A DNA stretch of 64,000 bases from Psychroflexus longus (lineage in GTDB: Bacteria; Bacteroidota; Bacteroidia; Flavobacteriales; Flavobacteriaceae), in NCBI RefSeq assembly GCF_020164595.1, contig NZ_JAIQZE010000002.1:62001-126000 (forward strand). Direction: 5' to 3'. Position numbers and translations under genes: made by a program. Under the pieces are notes generated by a model. The model was not told where the DNA came from and searched no databases. It was given only the letters and a program-made list of their open reading frames with translations. Numbering within the stretch: position 1 is the first letter of the stretch; each line of letters opens with the position of its first letter. Below, piece after piece: positions 22,561-28,231 of this stretch.

Positions 22561-22941
22561 ATGTTAAAAAATAAAGTTTTTACCTGTTTATTAGTTGTTT
22601 TTTATTTTTCAGTAAATCTATGTGTTGCACAAGATAAATTAAACGCTACTGAACTAAACATGGTAAAAAAATTAATTAAAGAAAAGCATCAATTAGAATC
22701 TAACAACGAGTTAAAAAGCTCTTATAAATTACAAATATTTTCAGGTTCTATAGACGATGCCAAGGACACCAAAGCTAAATTCGAGACTTTAGAATTTGAC
22801 ATAGATTCAAAAATAATTTATCAAACTCCAAATTATAAAGTCTGGGTTGGAAACTACAGAAACAGAATCCAGGCCGATAGAGCTTATGATAAAATAAAAT
22901 CTGAATACCCAAATACGCTTATCATTCGACCTGGAAAATAA
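22561..22941 (+). CDS. Small secreted SPOR-domain protein
   Basis: This 126-residue protein has a signal peptide (VFTCLLVVFYFSVNLCVAQ) and, from about residue 53, a single SPOR domain (YKLQIFSGSIDDAKDTKAKF to the C-terminus, with VWVGNYRNRIQADRAYDKIK). SPOR domains bind denuded septal peptidoglycan strands, so a periplasmic cell-wall role is likely, but there is no catalytic domain. It is transcribed divergently from the act-cox operon and separated from the arsenosugar cluster by 94 bases. Such short stand-alone SPOR proteins are common in flavobacteria and have no assigned function. Confidence 0.9.
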   Translation: MLKNKVFTCLLVVFYFSVNLCVAQDKLNATELNMVKKLIKEKHQLESNNELKSSYKLQIFSGSIDDAKDTKAKFETLEFDIDSKIIYQTPNYKVWVGNYRNRIQADRAYDKIKSEYPNTLIIRPGK

Positions 22942-23035: not shown

Positions 23036-23707
23036 ATGGAAAATAAAACAGGCATATTAATTTTTTCAAGATCGACACTTGCCGAATGCTCTGTCAAAAA
23101 ATTTAATGGTAACCATAGTTTTTTTGAAAGTCAAAAAAAAAGACTTGAAGCCTTATGTGCAAAAACAGGACTTGATGTCATTTGGTTTGGCGAAAAGCAT
23201 CAAAAAGGAAAAAATTTTGGTGAACGGTTCTGCCATTCCATCGCTTCAGTATTTTCAAAAGGTTACGATAGTCTAATCATAATTGGAAATGATTGTCCAC
23301 AATTAAAATTTAATCATCTTCAGTCTAGCATAAAATCTCTCGAGTCTGGAAATGCTTCTCTGGGAAGATGTTTTGATGGTGGATTTTATTTATTGGGTAT
23401 CCAAAAAAAGCACTTCAAATATTCCGAATTTATCAACTTATCATGGAATTCACATAAAGTAAGTAATGAGTTGGTAAAATCACTAAAGCCTAAAGTTGAA
23501 ATAGATTTTCTATCAATTTTTAAAGATGTTGACAATCAAAGTGACTTCCTAAGTTTACTTGATTTCTCAAAGCAACTTTACACTGATGTTATATTGATAT
23601 TAAAAAGAATACTCAAATTCTTCAATATTCATTTTCAAGACCCTACTTTGTTTGTAAAAGAAGGTGTTACTGGCGTCTATTTCAACAAAGCACCTCCGTC
23701 GGTTTAG
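23036..23707 (+). CDS. Divergent DUF2064 protein at the head of the arsenosugar cluster
   Basis: DUF2064 proteins have a CofC/MobA-like nucleotidyltransferase or glycosyltransferase fold and are found beside ArsS radical-SAM genes. In these 223 residues the second half of the fold is clear (IIGNDCPQL near residue 84, GRCFDGGFYLLG near 112). However, the N-terminal nucleotide-binding signature (the PxxGxxKTRL type seen in the paralogue at 26792) is missing and replaced by SRSTLAECSVKK. It may therefore be a non-catalytic or altered-specificity paralogue. The C-terminus ends in VTGVYFNKAPPSV. It is the first gene of a seven-gene plus-strand run. Confidence 0.85.
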   Translation: MENKTGILIFSRSTLAECSVKKFNGNHSFFESQKKRLEALCAKTGLDVIWFGEKHQKGKNFGERFCHSIASVFSKGYDSLIIIGNDCPQLKFNHLQSSIKSLESGNASLGRCFDGGFYLLGIQKKHFKYSEFINLSWNSHKVSNELVKSLKPKVEIDFLSIFKDVDNQSDFLSLLDFSKQLYTDVILILKRILKFFNIHFQDPTLFVKEGVTGVYFNKAPPSV

Positions 23708-23793
23708 AACAAAGTTATTTAAATCAACACTATCTCTATCTTATTCAAAATTATTTAAACCATAGGGTAAGCACCCTTAAAAACTTATTGTAT

Positions 23794-24129
23794 ATGGCAG
23801 ATTCCTATTATGATCCAAAAGACCTAAGAAAATTTCCAAAAATTACAGAATGGAGCGAAGAACTAGGTACAAAATTCTTTGACTACTATGGAAAGGTTTT
23901 TGAAAAAGGAGCGCTTTCCGAACGTGAAAAATCACTGATTGCATTGGCCGTTTCGCATGTGGTGAAATGCCCTTATTGCATAGACGCTTATACACAAGAT
24001 GGATTACAACGCGGTATCACAAAAGAAGAAATGATGGAGGCTGTGCACACAGGAGCAGCTATTGAGTCTGGCGCTACCCTGGTTCATGCTACTCAAATGA
24101 TGAAAAAATACGACAAGTTGAGTCATTAA
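23794..24129 (+). CDS. AhpD-like (carboxymuconolactone decarboxylase family) protein of the arsenosugar cluster
   Basis: This 111-residue protein belongs to the AhpD/CMD fold. The redox pair CPYC (Cys59, Cys62) and a following helix with an AVHTGAAIESGA pattern are conserved, and relatives are known as arsenosugar biosynthesis-associated peroxidase-like proteins. A thiol-redox role, for example reducing an arsenical or protecting the radical-SAM enzyme, is plausible but unproven. The start MADSYYDPKD at 23794 is preferred over 23788, which would add only MY. It is 44 bases upstream of arsS. Confidence 0.88.
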   Translation: MADSYYDPKDLRKFPKITEWSEELGTKFFDYYGKVFEKGALSEREKSLIALAVSHVVKCPYCIDAYTQDGLQRGITKEEMMEAVHTGAAIESGATLVHATQMMKKYDKLSH

Positions 24130-24173
24130 AGTTAAATGCAGAACTCTCAACTTCAAATTTTAAAAATACTGAA

Positions 24174-25226
24174 ATGGCAACTAAATCACTTCTAGCAAGA
24201 AAAAAGTTGATGGCTAAAGCAGAAGAGCAACTTAAATACCTGTCTAATGGGATTTTTAAAGATGAGCTTCCAACCTTTAGGCATCAATTGGAAAAGATTG
24301 ACGATTTTCCACTTAAACCCAAAGCCTTGGAAATTTTACAACTCAATCTTGGATATATGTGCAACCAAGTTTGTGAACATTGCCATGTGGATGCTGGTCC
24401 AGACCGAAAGGAAATTATGACCAAAGAAACCATGCAGCAATGTCTCGAGGTCATCAAAACTACCAAAGCTCATACGCTTGACCTGACGGGTGGTGCTCCA
24501 GAAATGAACCCTAACTTTAGATGGTTTGTAGAGGAAGCCGCTAAACTGGGAGTGAAAGATTTTATTGTGAGATCCAATCTTACCATCATAAGAGCCAATA
24601 AAAAGTACTTCGACTTACCTGAGTTTTTTAAAAAACATAATGTCCATGTCGTCAGTTCAATGCCACACTGGACCAAAGGCAAAACGGACAAACAACGCGG
24701 AAGTGGCGTTTTTGACAAATCGATAAAAGCCTTGCAAGATTTGAATGCCATCAGTTATGGAATGCCTGACTCGCCTTTACAATTGGATCTGGTTTATAAT
24801 CCCTCGGGGGCATTTCTACCTTCCAATCAGGAAGCTTTGGAACAAGACTTCAAAAAAGCTTTAAAAGAAGATTTCGACATTCAATTTAATAGTTTGTTTA
24901 CCATCACCAATTTACCGATTTCAAGATATTTAGATTACCTAATAGCTTCAGATAATTACGAAGACTATATGTATAAACTTGTAGATGCCTACAATCCTGC
25001 AGCGGTTAAGAATGTGATGTGTAGAAATACACTTTCCATAAGTTGGGACGGCTGGCTGTACGATTGCGATTTCAATCAAATGCTGGAAATGAGAGTTAAT
25101 AGTCCTGTACAACACATCAAAGATTACAACGAAGAGCAACTTCAGAATAGATCCATTTGTGTTTCACAGCATTGCTACGGGTGTACTGCTGGCGCAGGCA
25201 GTTCTTGCCAGGGAAGTGTTGTATAA
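24174..25226 (+). CDS. arsS: Arsenosugar biosynthesis radical-SAM protein ArsS
   Basis: ArsS is a radical S-adenosylmethionine enzyme. In cyanobacteria it joins the 5'-deoxyadenosyl group to dimethylarsenite, making the precursor of arsenosugars. The 350 residues contain the [4Fe-4S]-SAM motif CNQVCEHC (Cys63, Cys67, Cys70), a following LDLTGGAPEMNP segment, and the family's Cys-rich C-terminal end with CYGCTAGAGSSCQG. The centre has ISWDGWLYDCDFNQM, as in homologues. It lies 19 bases before arsM, so the substrate-making and substrate-using enzymes are coupled. The family was once annotated as a selenocysteine-associated radical-SAM protein. Confidence 0.93.
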   Translation: MATKSLLARKKLMAKAEEQLKYLSNGIFKDELPTFRHQLEKIDDFPLKPKALEILQLNLGYMCNQVCEHCHVDAGPDRKEIMTKETMQQCLEVIKTTKAHTLDLTGGAPEMNPNFRWFVEEAAKLGVKDFIVRSNLTIIRANKKYFDLPEFFKKHNVHVVSSMPHWTKGKTDKQRGSGVFDKSIKALQDLNAISYGMPDSPLQLDLVYNPSGAFLPSNQEALEQDFKKALKEDFDIQFNSLFTITNLPISRYLDYLIASDNYEDYMYKLVDAYNPAAVKNVMCRNTLSISWDGWLYDCDFNQMLEMRVNSPVQHIKDYNEEQLQNRSICVSQHCYGCTAGAGSSCQGSVV

Positions 25227-25245
25227 CAAACAAATTAAAAAGAAA

Positions 25246-26214
25246 ATGAGTTACTTAGAAACAACTTACAATGTCTATAAAGACGCAGCACTTACCCCAG
25301 ATGTGGGCTTATGTTGCACAACCAATCCTGTATGGGAATTGCCTGGATTGAAGATTCCTAAAATCATGCAGGAAATGAACTATGGCTGTGGAAGCACTGT
25401 TCATGCAAGAGACTTATCCAATAATCCAAAAATGCTTTATGTGGGCGTTGGTGGTGGTATGGAATTATTGCAGTTTGCGTATTTCAATCGCCAAAAAGAT
25501 GGCGTCATCGGTGTTGACATGGTCGATGAAATGCTGGAGGCTTCCAGAAAGAACTTCAAAGAAGCTGAAAAAGTCAATCCATGGTTCGAAAGTGATTTTG
25601 TGGATTTGAAAAAAGGCGATGCGCTCAATTTACCAGTCGCGGATAATAGCATTGATGTAGCTGCACAAAACTGCCTCTTCAACATTTTTAAAGCCGAAGA
25701 ACTTAAAAAAGCTATTAAAGAAATGTACCGCGTACTAAAGCCCAACGGCAAACTGGTGATGAGTGATCCCATTTGTGAGCAGGATATGAATGAGACTTTA
25801 AGAAACGATGACAGGTTGAGAGCCTTGTGCCTAAGCGGAAGTTTGCCATTGGCAGACTATGTCAAAGCACTTACCGATGTTGGCTTTGGTACTATCGAAA
25901 TAAGAGCAAAAAAGCCATACCGCATACTGGACCCTAAACACTATCCAACCGAGGAATTGATTTATATTGAATCTGTAGAAATTGCTGCCATCAAAGATCC
26001 AATGCCAGAAGATGGACCTTGCATTTTTACAGGGAAAGCAGCTATTTACTATGGAGATGAGCCGTTATTTGATGATGATAATGGACACATCTTGCTTAAA
26101 AATCAACCCCTTTCTATTTGTGATAAAACAGCTGCGGCTTTATCAAAATTGAAAAGAGATGATATCTACATAAGCGAATCCACCTTTCATTACGATGGTG
26201 GTGGATGTTGCTAA
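25246..26214 (+). CDS. arsM: Arsenite methyltransferase ArsM (arsenosugar type)
   Basis: This SAM-dependent methyltransferase probably methylates As(III) to dimethylarsenite for ArsS. The start at 25246 (MSYLETTYNVY) gives 322 residues; the reading frame is open further upstream but that part overlaps arsS. Visible are the paired Cys23-Cys24 in LCCTTNPVWELPG, glycine-rich SAM loop YVGVGGGMELLQ near residue 65, Cys143 in NCLFNIF, Cys177 in DPICEQD, and the C-terminal metal-binding-like tail DGGGCC. These are typical of the ArsM group found with ArsS. There is no arsR, arsenite pump or arsenate reductase nearby. Confidence 0.92.
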   Translation: MSYLETTYNVYKDAALTPDVGLCCTTNPVWELPGLKIPKIMQEMNYGCGSTVHARDLSNNPKMLYVGVGGGMELLQFAYFNRQKDGVIGVDMVDEMLEASRKNFKEAEKVNPWFESDFVDLKKGDALNLPVADNSIDVAAQNCLFNIFKAEELKKAIKEMYRVLKPNGKLVMSDPICEQDMNETLRNDDRLRALCLSGSLPLADYVKALTDVGFGTIEIRAKKPYRILDPKHYPTEELIYIESVEIAAIKDPMPEDGPCIFTGKAAIYYGDEPLFDDDNGHILLKNQPLSICDKTAAALSKLKRDDIYISESTFHYDGGGCC

Positions 26215-26294
26215 AGAAACCAATAAATTTAGGTTTTACTAAAAACGAGTCTCTACCTTTGTTGAAATAAAATAGGCTTCTGAAGCTGATTATC

Positions 26295-26792
26295 ATGAAT
26301 TTAAAATTTAGTTTATTTTTAATTGTATCTCCGTTAATTGGTTTTGCTCAAAGCAAAATGGACGATGCCATCAAGGAATACAATTCTAATTCAGTAGAGT
26401 ACATTAGTGTAGAAGACTTGATACAGCTGAAAAATTCAAACGCCAACATCAAACTTTTAGACACGAGAGAAGCTTCAGAATATAGTATAAGTCATATTCA
26501 AGATGCCGTTTATGCTGGATATGATGATTTTAAATTAAAATCAATAGTAGATAAAATCAATACCAAAGATACCATTGTGGTCTATTGTTCGATTGGTGTA
26601 CGTTCGGAAGATATTGGAGAACGCCTACAAAAAGCAGGATATAAAAACGTTTTCAACCTCTACGGCGGAATTTTTGATTGGGTAAATAACGATCAAAAAG
26701 TCTACGGTCACGAGGGAAAACTAACCAGTAAAGTTCATGCCTACGACAGATTTTGGGGTAATTACTTAGAAAAAGGGCAAAAAGTATATTAA
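26295..26792 (+). CDS. Secreted rhodanese-like protein of the arsenosugar cluster
   Basis: This 165-residue protein has a signal peptide (KFSLFLIVSPLIGFAQ) and one rhodanese domain (about residues 45-140). The catalytic-loop cysteine is Cys98 in VYCSIGVRS, and the motif LLDTREASEYSISHI is at the domain start. Rhodaneses transfer sulfane sulfur or bind oxyanions such as arsenate. The periplasmic location suggests a role away from the cytoplasmic ArsM/ArsS steps. Its last base overlaps the ATG of the next gene, so the two are translationally coupled. Confidence 0.9.
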   Translation: MNLKFSLFLIVSPLIGFAQSKMDDAIKEYNSNSVEYISVEDLIQLKNSNANIKLLDTREASEYSISHIQDAVYAGYDDFKLKSIVDKINTKDTIVVYCSIGVRSEDIGERLQKAGYKNVFNLYGGIFDWVNNDQKVYGHEGKLTSKVHAYDRFWGNYLEKGQKVY

Positions 26793-27415
26793 TGGATAGG
26801 TTGGTTATAGTTTTTGCAAAGAATCCTGAACTTGGAAAGTGTAAAACACGTTTGGCCAAAAGCATTGGGAATGAAAAAGCTTTAGAGGTTTACAAAGAAT
26901 TGATCAAACACACGGCTAAAACAATCAGCAACGTTAGCGCCAGTCGGGCAATATTTTATTCAAAAGAAATTCAAAAAAATGACTTCTGGGACGATTCTCT
27001 ATTTCATAAACTAGTACAGAGCGGTGGTCATCTTGGCGAAAAAATGCAAGCTGCTTTTGAGTGGGGTTTTGCTCAAGGTTATTCTAAAATTTGTATTGTT
27101 GGCAGTGATTTATTTGAACTGGAAGCCTCAGATCTCGATAAGGCTTTTCAAAAATTAGAACAAAATGATCTGGTTTTTGGACCTGCCAACGATGGCGGTT
27201 ATTATCTGATGGGTATGTCTGCATTATATAAAGAAGCCTTTTTAGAAAAAGCCTGGAGTACCGAAACCGTCCTTGAGCAAACTCTGAAAGATTTAAAGAA
27301 TCAAAACATCAGGCTTCTGGAAACCAAAACCGATATTGACATTGTAGAAGATTTGGTGAAACATCCGGAATTTCATCGTTTAATACCACATCGGATTTTA
27401 AAAAAACTAACATAA
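26792..27415 (+). CDS. DUF2064 glycosyltransferase-like protein (CofC-like) of the arsenosugar cluster
   Basis: This is a 207-residue DUF2064 protein with an intact N-terminal nucleotide-binding signature (FAKNPELGKCKTRLAKSIG), a metal-binding-like GSDLFEL and the family hallmark FGPANDGGYYLMGM. Families of this kind next to ArsS are named arsenosugar biosynthesis glycosyltransferases, although the reaction is not shown. It is the canonical paralogue of the divergent protein at 23036-23707. It overlaps the rhodanese gene by one base and is 3 bases before the nucleoside phosphorylase. Confidence 0.9.
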   Translation: MDRLVIVFAKNPELGKCKTRLAKSIGNEKALEVYKELIKHTAKTISNVSASRAIFYSKEIQKNDFWDDSLFHKLVQSGGHLGEKMQAAFEWGFAQGYSKICIVGSDLFELEASDLDKAFQKLEQNDLVFGPANDGGYYLMGMSALYKEAFLEKAWSTETVLEQTLKDLKNQNIRLLETKTDIDIVEDLVKHPEFHRLIPHRILKKLT

Positions 27416-27418
27416 CTT

Positions 27419-28231
27419 ATGAAAGACAGACTAGAAAAAACTGTAAGCTACCTTGAAAAAAAAGGATTTGAAAATCCTGAAATCGGGATCATTCTCGGCA
27501 CTGGCCTTGGAAAACTGATTGACCAAATAGATATTGAAAAAGAAATAAGTTACAACCACATCCCACACTTCCCGACAGCCACGGTGGAATTTCACCAGGG
27601 TAAATTTATTTTTGGCAGCTTGGGTGGCAAAAAAGTAGTTGTAATGCAGGGCCGTTTCCACTTTTACGAAGGCTACTCCCTACAAGACATTACCTACCCG
27701 GTGAGGATCATGAAGGAATTAGGCATCCAGAAACTTTTGGTGTCCAATGCCGCTGGCGGGATCAACAAAACATACAAAAAAGGCGATTTGATGCTTATCG
27801 ATGACCACATCAATCTGCAGGGTGGCTCACCATTAGCCTTCAAAGGCGTTTCACAATTTGGCGAGCGTTTTGTCGACATGTTGGCGCCTTACGATAATGA
27901 GATGAATACACAATTCAAAGCCATAGCGAAAGAACATGATATCACCCTTCACGAAGGCGTCTACGCTTCTGTTGTGGGACCTCAATTGGAAACTCGCGCG
28001 GAATATCGCTATCTCGGCATCATTGGAGCAGATGCAGTGGGAATGAGCACAGTGCCAGAAGTTATCGTTGCCAATCACCTAAAGTTGCCAGTTTCGGCCA
28101 TTTCGGTTTTAACCGACGAGTGTGATCCCGATAATTTACAACCTGTGAATGTCGAAGAAATCATCGCTGTGGCCAGTAAAGCAGAACCCAAACTCGTACA
28201 GCTTTTTAAAAGCCTTATAAAAAATATGTAG
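27419..28231 (+). CDS. Purine nucleoside phosphorylase (inosine/guanosine type)
   Basis: PNP cleaves a purine nucleoside with phosphate to the base and ribose-1-phosphate. The 270 residues match the trimeric PunA type: GTGLGKL near the N-terminus, the phosphate-site HFPTATVEFHQGK, QGRFHFYEGY, SNAAGGINKTYKKGDL, and the base-binding segment VGMSTVPEVIVANH. It is 3 bases after the DUF2064 gene and closes the arsenosugar run. In that setting it could release adenine from the adenosyl-arsenical made by ArsS, but PunA-type enzymes usually prefer 6-oxopurines, so ordinary purine salvage is just as possible. Confidence 0.93.
   Translation: MKDRLEKTVSYLEKKGFENPEIGIILGTGLGKLIDQIDIEKEISYNHIPHFPTATVEFHQGKFIFGSLGGKKVVVMQGRFHFYEGYSLQDITYPVRIMKELGIQKLLVSNAAGGINKTYKKGDLMLIDDHINLQGGSPLAFKGVSQFGERFVDMLAPYDNEMNTQFKAIAKEHDITLHEGVYASVVGPQLETRAEYRYLGIIGADAVGMSTVPEVIVANHLKLPVSAISVLTDECDPDNLQPVNVEEIIAVASKAEPKLVQLFKSLIKNM

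Follow-up and report, generated by a model that had tools for sequence, protein, structure and literature searches.

The genome of Psychroflexus longus (2.95 Mb) contains a run of seven genes that brings together two arsenic enzymes, ArsM and ArsS, and a purine nucleoside phosphorylase (PNP). The run lies at positions 23036-28231 of the window, which here means the whole analysed stretch of 64,000 nucleotides (contig C12:62001-126000). A preliminary description of this DNA listed seven plus-strand genes, including ArsM, ArsS, an AhpD-like protein, a rhodanese and the PNP. All seven were confirmed on that strand, both in position and by family matches from NCBIfam and Pfam profile searches (Table 1).

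Table 1. Genes of the run in window coordinates; scores are bits/curated cut-off.
Feature	Position	Strand	Family match
D2064a, degenerate DUF2064/TIGR04282-like protein, 223 amino acids (aa)	23036..23707	+	TIGR04282 91.6/134, below cut-off
AhpD/CMD-fold protein, 'arsenosugar biosynthesis-associated peroxidase-like protein'	23788..24129	+	TIGR04169 186.8/120
ArsS radical SAM enzyme, CxxxCxxC present	24174..25226	+	TIGR04167 444.8/300
ArsM arsenite methyltransferase, arsenosugar type	25246..26214	+	NF038099 570.5/400
Rhodanese-domain protein ('rhoda_near_glyco')	26295..26792	+	NF045521 192.6/145
D2064b, intact DUF2064/TIGR04282 protein, 207 aa	26792..27415	+	TIGR04282 207/134
PunA-family PNP, 270 aa	27419..28231	+	PRK08202 349.1/218; TIGR01700 302/293.35

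The gaps between the genes are, in order, 80, 44, 19, 80, -1 and 3 bases. A terminator scan gave one site across the region, within the D2064b gene, with 4.7 expected by chance. The AhpD-like gene may start at TTG 23788 or at ATG 23794, and for ArsM the open reading frame (ORF) listing also offers an earlier GTG start. The N-terminus of the rhodanese looks signal-like, as judged by eye.

This type of cluster is already known. Four of the families in the run carry the name 'arsenosugar biosynthesis' in NCBIfam (TIGR04167, NF038099, TIGR04169 and TIGR04282). None of the PNP families matched carries it.

To see what keeps company with ArsS, an alignment of 30 ArsS proteins was used to scan for loci, and the best 80 of 593 confirmed loci were kept. 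Going by record titles and by genus membership, these 80 named loci are presumably mostly Flavobacteriaceae; at least two are titled otherwise (L267, Chlorobiota; L308, Vicingaceae). The neighbourhood was defined as the five genes preceding and the six following ArsS on its strand. AhpD is found in all 80, D2064b in 50, the PNP in 48, ArsM in 44, the rhodanese in 40 and D2064a in 20. The most frequent order, in 27 of the 80 loci, is AhpD-ArsS-Rhod-D2064b-PNP-ArsM.

This leaves 32 loci without a PNP in view. For these, 28 genomes were searched, plus three linked loci as controls. A PNP could be read in 25 of the 28, with D2064b adjoining or one gene off in 24 and ArsM adjoining in one. As for the remaining seven loci, the relevant copy was not read in three (L308, L322, L336), and the genomes of four (L267, L323, L327, L338) lie outside the search. 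The genomes of L308 and L322 have a PNP with histidine at a pocket column described below, away from pathway genes, and each has a second, unread PNP match.

The preliminary description had proposed comparing ArsS neighbourhoods across flavobacteria, and by that comparison the PNP belongs to the pathway as a conserved component: it sits in an arsenosugar block in at least 73 of the 80 named loci. No clear counter-example to the linkage was found among these 80.

Where the cluster is split, 10 loci have the second block some 10-11 kb away from ArsS, on the same contig as inferred from matching coordinates; in others it is far away. The rhodanese, D2064b, PNP and often ArsM tend to stay together upon separation from ArsS.

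In several loci the second block lies behind three genes. In L294 (8904-14894, between D2064a and the rhodanese-D2064b-PNP block) these encode a pair of SusC-like receptor and SusD-like lipoprotein, plus a protein of 446 aa that has no Pfam match. A similar trio, by gene length alone, is present in L269, L270, L282, L292, L296, L306, L309 and L322. Such genes could point to uptake of a related glycoside or organoarsenical by some flavobacteria. In L261 (10365-11063) and L263 (9273-9980) the gene between D2064b and the PNP codes for a DM13-domain protein that has a Por secretion tail.

The pocket of the PNP was read from alignments. The window protein has Val245 in the column of human His257 and Asp233 in the column of human Asn243. 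We take these pairings (245/257 and 233/243) from human motifs and from alignments to other solved PNPs and to methylthioadenosine (MTA) phosphorylases, or MTAPs. All 72 readable ArsS-pathway PNPs have isoleucine or valine in the His257 column (47/47 linked, 25/25 split), and all 47 linked ones have aspartate in the Asn243 column. Three MTA phosphorylases likewise have Asp in column 233, with V, V and A in column 245. The likeness to MtnP/MTAP thus lies in the aspartate of the base column and the small hydrophobic residue of the 5' pocket, whereas the window protein itself belongs to the PunA family and scores 93.7 bits against the MTA phosphorylase family TIGR01694, below the cut-off of 274.85.

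In human PNP, His257 binds the 5'-OH and Asn243 binds the base, according to PMC4308819 and PMC5147791. The latter relates the view that a hydrophobic 5' site without hydrogen-bond partners explains why MTA phosphorylases accept 5'-substituted deoxynucleosides. The window PNP lacks the His and Asn at the human H257 and N243 columns that mark inosine/guanosine PNPs, although it passes TIGR01700. Taken together, the residues support a putative 5'-deoxynucleoside type of pocket for the cluster PNP. The aspartate at the Asn243 column was also considered as a special feature and rejected; it is present in 180 of 186 readable PNPs of the class.

These class figures come from 197 genomes drawn evenly from the class, with ArsS above cut-off in 32. 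Locus L091, where the ArsS frame was lost in ORF picking, was left out of the family counts. The PNP reading covers 187 PNPs from 172 genomes. Two PunA-type matches occur in 11/32 ArsS genomes versus 8/165 others (Fisher p ~1.2e-5, uncorrected for kinship; the counts include G048, whose two matches are fragments of one gene). Where a genome holds both pocket types and has one of the two copies beside ArsS (G070, G079, G103, G130), that copy is hydrophobic and the other has histidine.

A quick tree of 185 class PNPs, with long branches flagged, places the histidine type and the other types mostly in two large groups, with seven changes needed. All 10 ArsS-adjacent PNPs in the tree fall in the hydrophobic group. 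Together with its four closest PNPs, the window PNP makes up one set (SH-aLRT 98) that spans three families and is ArsS-adjacent throughout. One genome, G081, carries the cluster PNP as well as another PNP belonging to its own lineage, a pattern that travel of the PNP along with the cassette would produce.

One rival reading is ordinary purine salvage by a housekeeping PunA that stands beside arsenic genes by chance. In its favour, this is the only PunA-type PNP of the genome, and 29 of the 31 named genomes searched have a single one. Against that, the other main group of PNPs in the class carries His in the 5' column and is found among unrelated genes where viewed (for example in G175 and G196, which belong to the window's family and lack ArsS). 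The genome also has a DeoD-type PNP, adjoining deoC, and chance can hardly account for the 73 or more loci out of 80 in which the PNP is linked to pathway genes. Purine salvage as the whole explanation is quite improbable.

DeoD is above cut-off in seven of the 197 class genomes. The DeoD-positive ones are the window's genome, G151 and G125 (all three ArsS-bearing members of its family; the G125 match is marked with one TAA) and G001, and the remaining three (G020, G145, G126) are without ArsS. The pattern fits a cluster PNP freed from housekeeping, in a small sample where three of the seven DeoD genomes lack ArsS. DeoD as a general stand-in wherever the hydrophobic PNP is the only PNP fails across the class, at 7/197, and holds for the three family members and G001.

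Other lineages were looked at through plasmids. ArsS was found on 51 plasmid records; by first word these represent six genera, 46 records being Burkholderia, and one record per genus was viewed. On Burkholderia glumae NZ_CP100267.1, the gene immediately preceding TIGR04283 and TIGR04282 codes for a protein above the MTAP cut-off and lies about 6 kb away from ArsS. Cupriavidus sp. KK10 has the order ArsM-like methyltransferase, AhpD-like, ArsS, reductase, TVP38-like, TIGR04283, TIGR04282, MTAP. Here the AhpD, reductase and TVP38 names come from reading ORFs by eye, the methyltransferase is below the cut-offs of its families, and the MTAP is above that of its own. In Acinetobacter portensis, mtnP is about 6.5 kb from ArsS on the opposite strand, where the ArsS operon ends and past one phosphate-transporter gene; its product is also above the MTAP cut-off. 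The strongest sign that a 5'-substituted adenosine is cleaved is that a different branch of the phosphorylase superfamily appears in the same setting in another phylum.

A phosphate-transporter gene stands beside arsenosugar genes in Acinetobacter (L388:25392-26504, annotated) and in Cupriavidus (L384:2991-4130, by eye). Judging by position, these neighbours may serve arsenate uptake or supply phosphate for phosphorolysis.

The most serious rival is by-product salvage, in which the PNP or MTAP would remove 5'-deoxyadenosine and MTA, both inhibitors of radical SAM enzymes, making it a helper of ArsS and not a biosynthetic step. The genome has only three PF01048 proteins (PunA, DeoD and a relative of uridine phosphorylase), and no MTAN or MTAP was found among them; across the class MTAN is above cut-off in 6/197 genomes and MTAP in 0/197. 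MtnP-type enzymes do cleave 5'-deoxyadenosine, as reported in PMC8102628. The same paper also says that in Synechococcus extracts non-MtnP enzymes such as PNPs apparently do not process it. Furthermore, the PNP keeps with D2064b in 24 of the 25 split blocks, and in two Proteobacteria the MTAP keeps with TIGR04283/TIGR04282; neither is tied to ArsS alone. An enzyme for by-products in general would have no reason to accompany the transferases in a split cluster. By-product salvage is therefore unlikely, if less so than the other alternatives.

An anticorrelation with MTAN/MTAP was also considered as evidence. With both so nearly absent in the class counts just given it is uninformative, and matches below the curated cut-offs are common in the class.

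The preliminary description spoke of paired DUF2064 proteins. There are two, and the pair recurs: D2064b is also present in 19 of the 20 genomes of named loci with D2064a (L322 was not read). D2064a plus D2064b is a recurring arrangement and not peculiar to this genome. The two are unequal, however, in that D2064a lacks the N-terminal GKxKTRL motif and falls below the TIGR04282 cut-off.

D2064b keeps that motif, and K18, T19 and R20 are invariant in 32 aligned sequences. Its structure model has a predicted local distance difference test (pLDDT) score of 95.4. In a structure comparison (VIA-align) with a list drawn from Foldseek matches, the best match is the DUF2064 structure 3cgx (Z 26.7, 205 aligned, 1.9 A). 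The next folds, and the nearest characterised ones, are CofC/FbiD-type nucleotidyltransferases: 7p97 (Z 18.8), 2i5e (18.4) and 6bwh (16.6). D2064b and CofC share a KxRL motif in the corresponding place.

It had been proposed that a DUF2064 protein attaches the arsenoribose directly to a further molecule. Given the nearness of the D2064b fold to CofC-type nucleotidyltransferases, activation fits better. On the model, D2064b is more likely a nucleotidyltransferase that would act on the PNP product, activating the sugar instead of attaching it.

D2064a is a different case. It retains the C-terminal half of the domain (TIGR04282 profile positions 71-188 matched). The GKxKTRL motif is also absent from 19 of 20 D2064a relatives, which are those readable there (L309 is cut). 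It has an extra helical C-terminal tail that D2064b does not have; a conserved N-K-G-S-P closes the sequence in 19 aligned relatives, against NKAPP in the window. The D2064a model is weaker (pLDDT 81.6, the tail below 50). A fold search gives DUF2064 (3cgx) first and nucleotidyltransferases next, and from the model a shared fold with these is what can be suggested, nothing further. As a motif-less paralogue, D2064a is perhaps a non-catalytic partner or a sugar-binding subunit.

More of the pathway may be encoded outside the run. Genes for DUF547, TIGR04283 (in NCBIfam an 'arsenosugar biosynthesis glycosyltransferase'), an FAD oxidoreductase and a NapH-like ferredoxin protein form a block at C12:170833-175238, some 45 kb beyond the window. 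The genome holds two TIGR04283 proteins above cut-off, both unlinked to the run, the second being on contig C1. In a class relative, G029 (locus L071), relatives of all four module genes are together, beside ArsS and D2064b. By eye, the genes adjoining the DUF547-TIGR04283 module resemble sulfate assimilation genes.

Within the run there is no arsR, arsenite pump or arsenate reductase, as first described. The same contig does however carry a detoxification operon, arsR-DUF6428-acr3-arsC-like, at about 41.8-44.9 kb on C12, roughly 40 kb upstream of the cluster. Calling the run a route 'instead of a detoxification operon' was too strong for a genome that has this operon. The arsC-like gene is a weak match, at 39.8 bits versus the cut-off of 215 of an arsenate reductase family.

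This operon also bears on arsenolysis, whereby the PNP would make ribose-1-arsenate, thiols would reduce this to arsenite, and the arsenite would feed ArsM in a cluster without arsC. In vitro reduction of arsenate by PNP is reported in PMC12608789. Against this reading, the genome has an arsC-like gene, weak match as it is, beside acr3; arsenate reduction does not call for an altered 5' pocket, and an MTA phosphorylase would be an odd substitute. Arsenolysis is very improbable. Both it and purine salvage fit less well than by-product salvage.

Arsenosugars are major organic arsenic compounds of the sea. In these families, ArsM is known to produce dimethylarsenite, and ArsS to add a 5'-deoxyadenosyl group to the arsenic. 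Ever since this pathway was first put forward, the way in which adenine is replaced once ArsS has acted has been, to our knowledge, an open question. Here the PNP would phosphorolyse 5'-deoxy-5'-dimethylarsino(yl)-adenosine to adenine and 5-deoxy-5-dimethylarsinoyl-ribose-1-phosphate. Less surely, D2064b would activate this arsenoribose-1-phosphate with a nucleotide, after which a TIGR04283 glycosyltransferase encoded elsewhere would pass the arsenoribose to glycerol or a lipid.

The run is probably the core of such a bacterial arsenosugar pathway, with the PNP cutting adenine off the ArsS product and, less surely, D2064b then activating and TIGR04283 transferring. It had earlier been called complete, which does not hold: TIGR04283, DUF547 and the redox genes of relatives' ArsS clusters lie elsewhere in the genome.

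A wider, nucleotide-activated route can be put forward tentatively. A 5'-deoxynucleoside phosphorylase (PunA-type with an MTAP-like pocket in flavobacteria, MtnP in some Proteobacteria) would yield arsenoribose-1-phosphate, DUF2064 would turn this into a nucleoside diphosphate (NDP)-arsenoribose, and TIGR04283 would transfer it to a lipid or glycerol acceptor.

Several observations weigh against these proposals. In the class sample the PNP is near ArsS in just 10 of the 32 ArsS genomes, which rejects universal adjacency within the stretches viewed; these were 4.5-19 kb long, and absence of a PNP at contig ends is uninformative. One of the 32, G068, has no PNP at all, and the histidine type is the only one in five of the 31 ArsS genomes with a PNP. 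Three of the six plasmid genera (Hymenobacter, Pseudanabaena, Thiodictyon) show no annotated phosphorylase in view, in records with incomplete gene tables. DeoD could in principle also cleave adenosines.

The pocket residue needs care as well. It is hydrophobic in 26/31 ArsS genomes with a PNP, but also in 57/141 ArsS-less ones (Fisher p ~1.6e-5, uncorrected for kinship). Being this common where ArsS is absent, the residue therefore indicates tolerance at best, not arsenic specificity. The weight of the His257 column is itself uncertain, because simulations of human PNP saw no strong persistence of the contact between His257 and the 5'-OH, according to PMC4308819.

For D2064b, NCBIfam labels the family glycosyltransferase. 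Below the CofC group in the fold comparison, the nucleotidyltransferases TarI (14.5) and IspD (14.1) score level with mannosylglycerate synthase (14.0), which is a glycosyltransferase. Against TIGR03552, the CofC 2-phospho-L-lactate guanylyltransferase family, D2064b scores 46 bits, below the cut-off of 105.

The hydrophobic residue was separately tried as a mark of the arsenic pathway. A clean split was seen only among mostly best-scoring ArsS-less PNPs, and it disappeared in the fuller sample. The association with ArsS persists there, whereas specificity was given up as a claim.

Compared to the NCBIfam arsenosugar families, ArsS, ArsM, the AhpD-like protein and D2064b pass their cut-offs and TIGR04283 is in the genome. 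Unlike those, there is a PNP in the block, one DUF2064 protein is below cut-off and the TIGR04283 module is unlinked. The Synechocystis SsArsM/SsArsS pathway, as cited in PMC8552651, uses the same two enzymes that form C-As bonds. In the one cyanobacterial record viewed, the Pseudanabaena plasmid, ArsM and ArsS are in contrast without an annotated PNP nearby.

There is precedent for a phosphorylase acting on an adenosine-type nucleoside in a biosynthetic cluster. FlB of the fluorometabolite pathway phosphorolyses 5'-fluoro-5'-deoxyadenosine, and nucleocidin has NucPNP, according to PMC8694150. By analogy, the chemistry proposed for the PNP would be that of FlB, with arsenic in place of fluorine; the parallel is drawn on chemistry, not sequence.

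The comparison names candidate enzymes for the adenine-removal step in two phyla, and for activation afterwards. If true, the activated route would make this pathway an arsenic analogue of fluorometabolite biosynthesis, and the DUF2064 'glycosyltransferases' would have to be renamed nucleotidyltransferases. Few proteins are involved, most of them soluble-looking, and the predicted products are adenine and arsenoribose-1-phosphate. A literature search found, among the papers listed, no statement of the phosphorylase step, its adaptation, the replacement by MTAP or DUF2064 as activator; two main pathway papers lie outside its coverage, and an earlier mention is possible.

Fatty acid hydroxylase/sterol desaturase genes are found by arsenosugar genes in a flavobacterium (L259:11058-11936), Acinetobacter (L388:27469-28128) and Thiodictyon (L389:11057-11962), hinting at a possible lipid acceptor or product.

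Finally, a SPOR-domain protein is encoded at window positions 22561-22941, on the same strand and 94 bases upstream of the run. Relatives of it are also near the ArsS loci of class genomes G151, G070 and G130.

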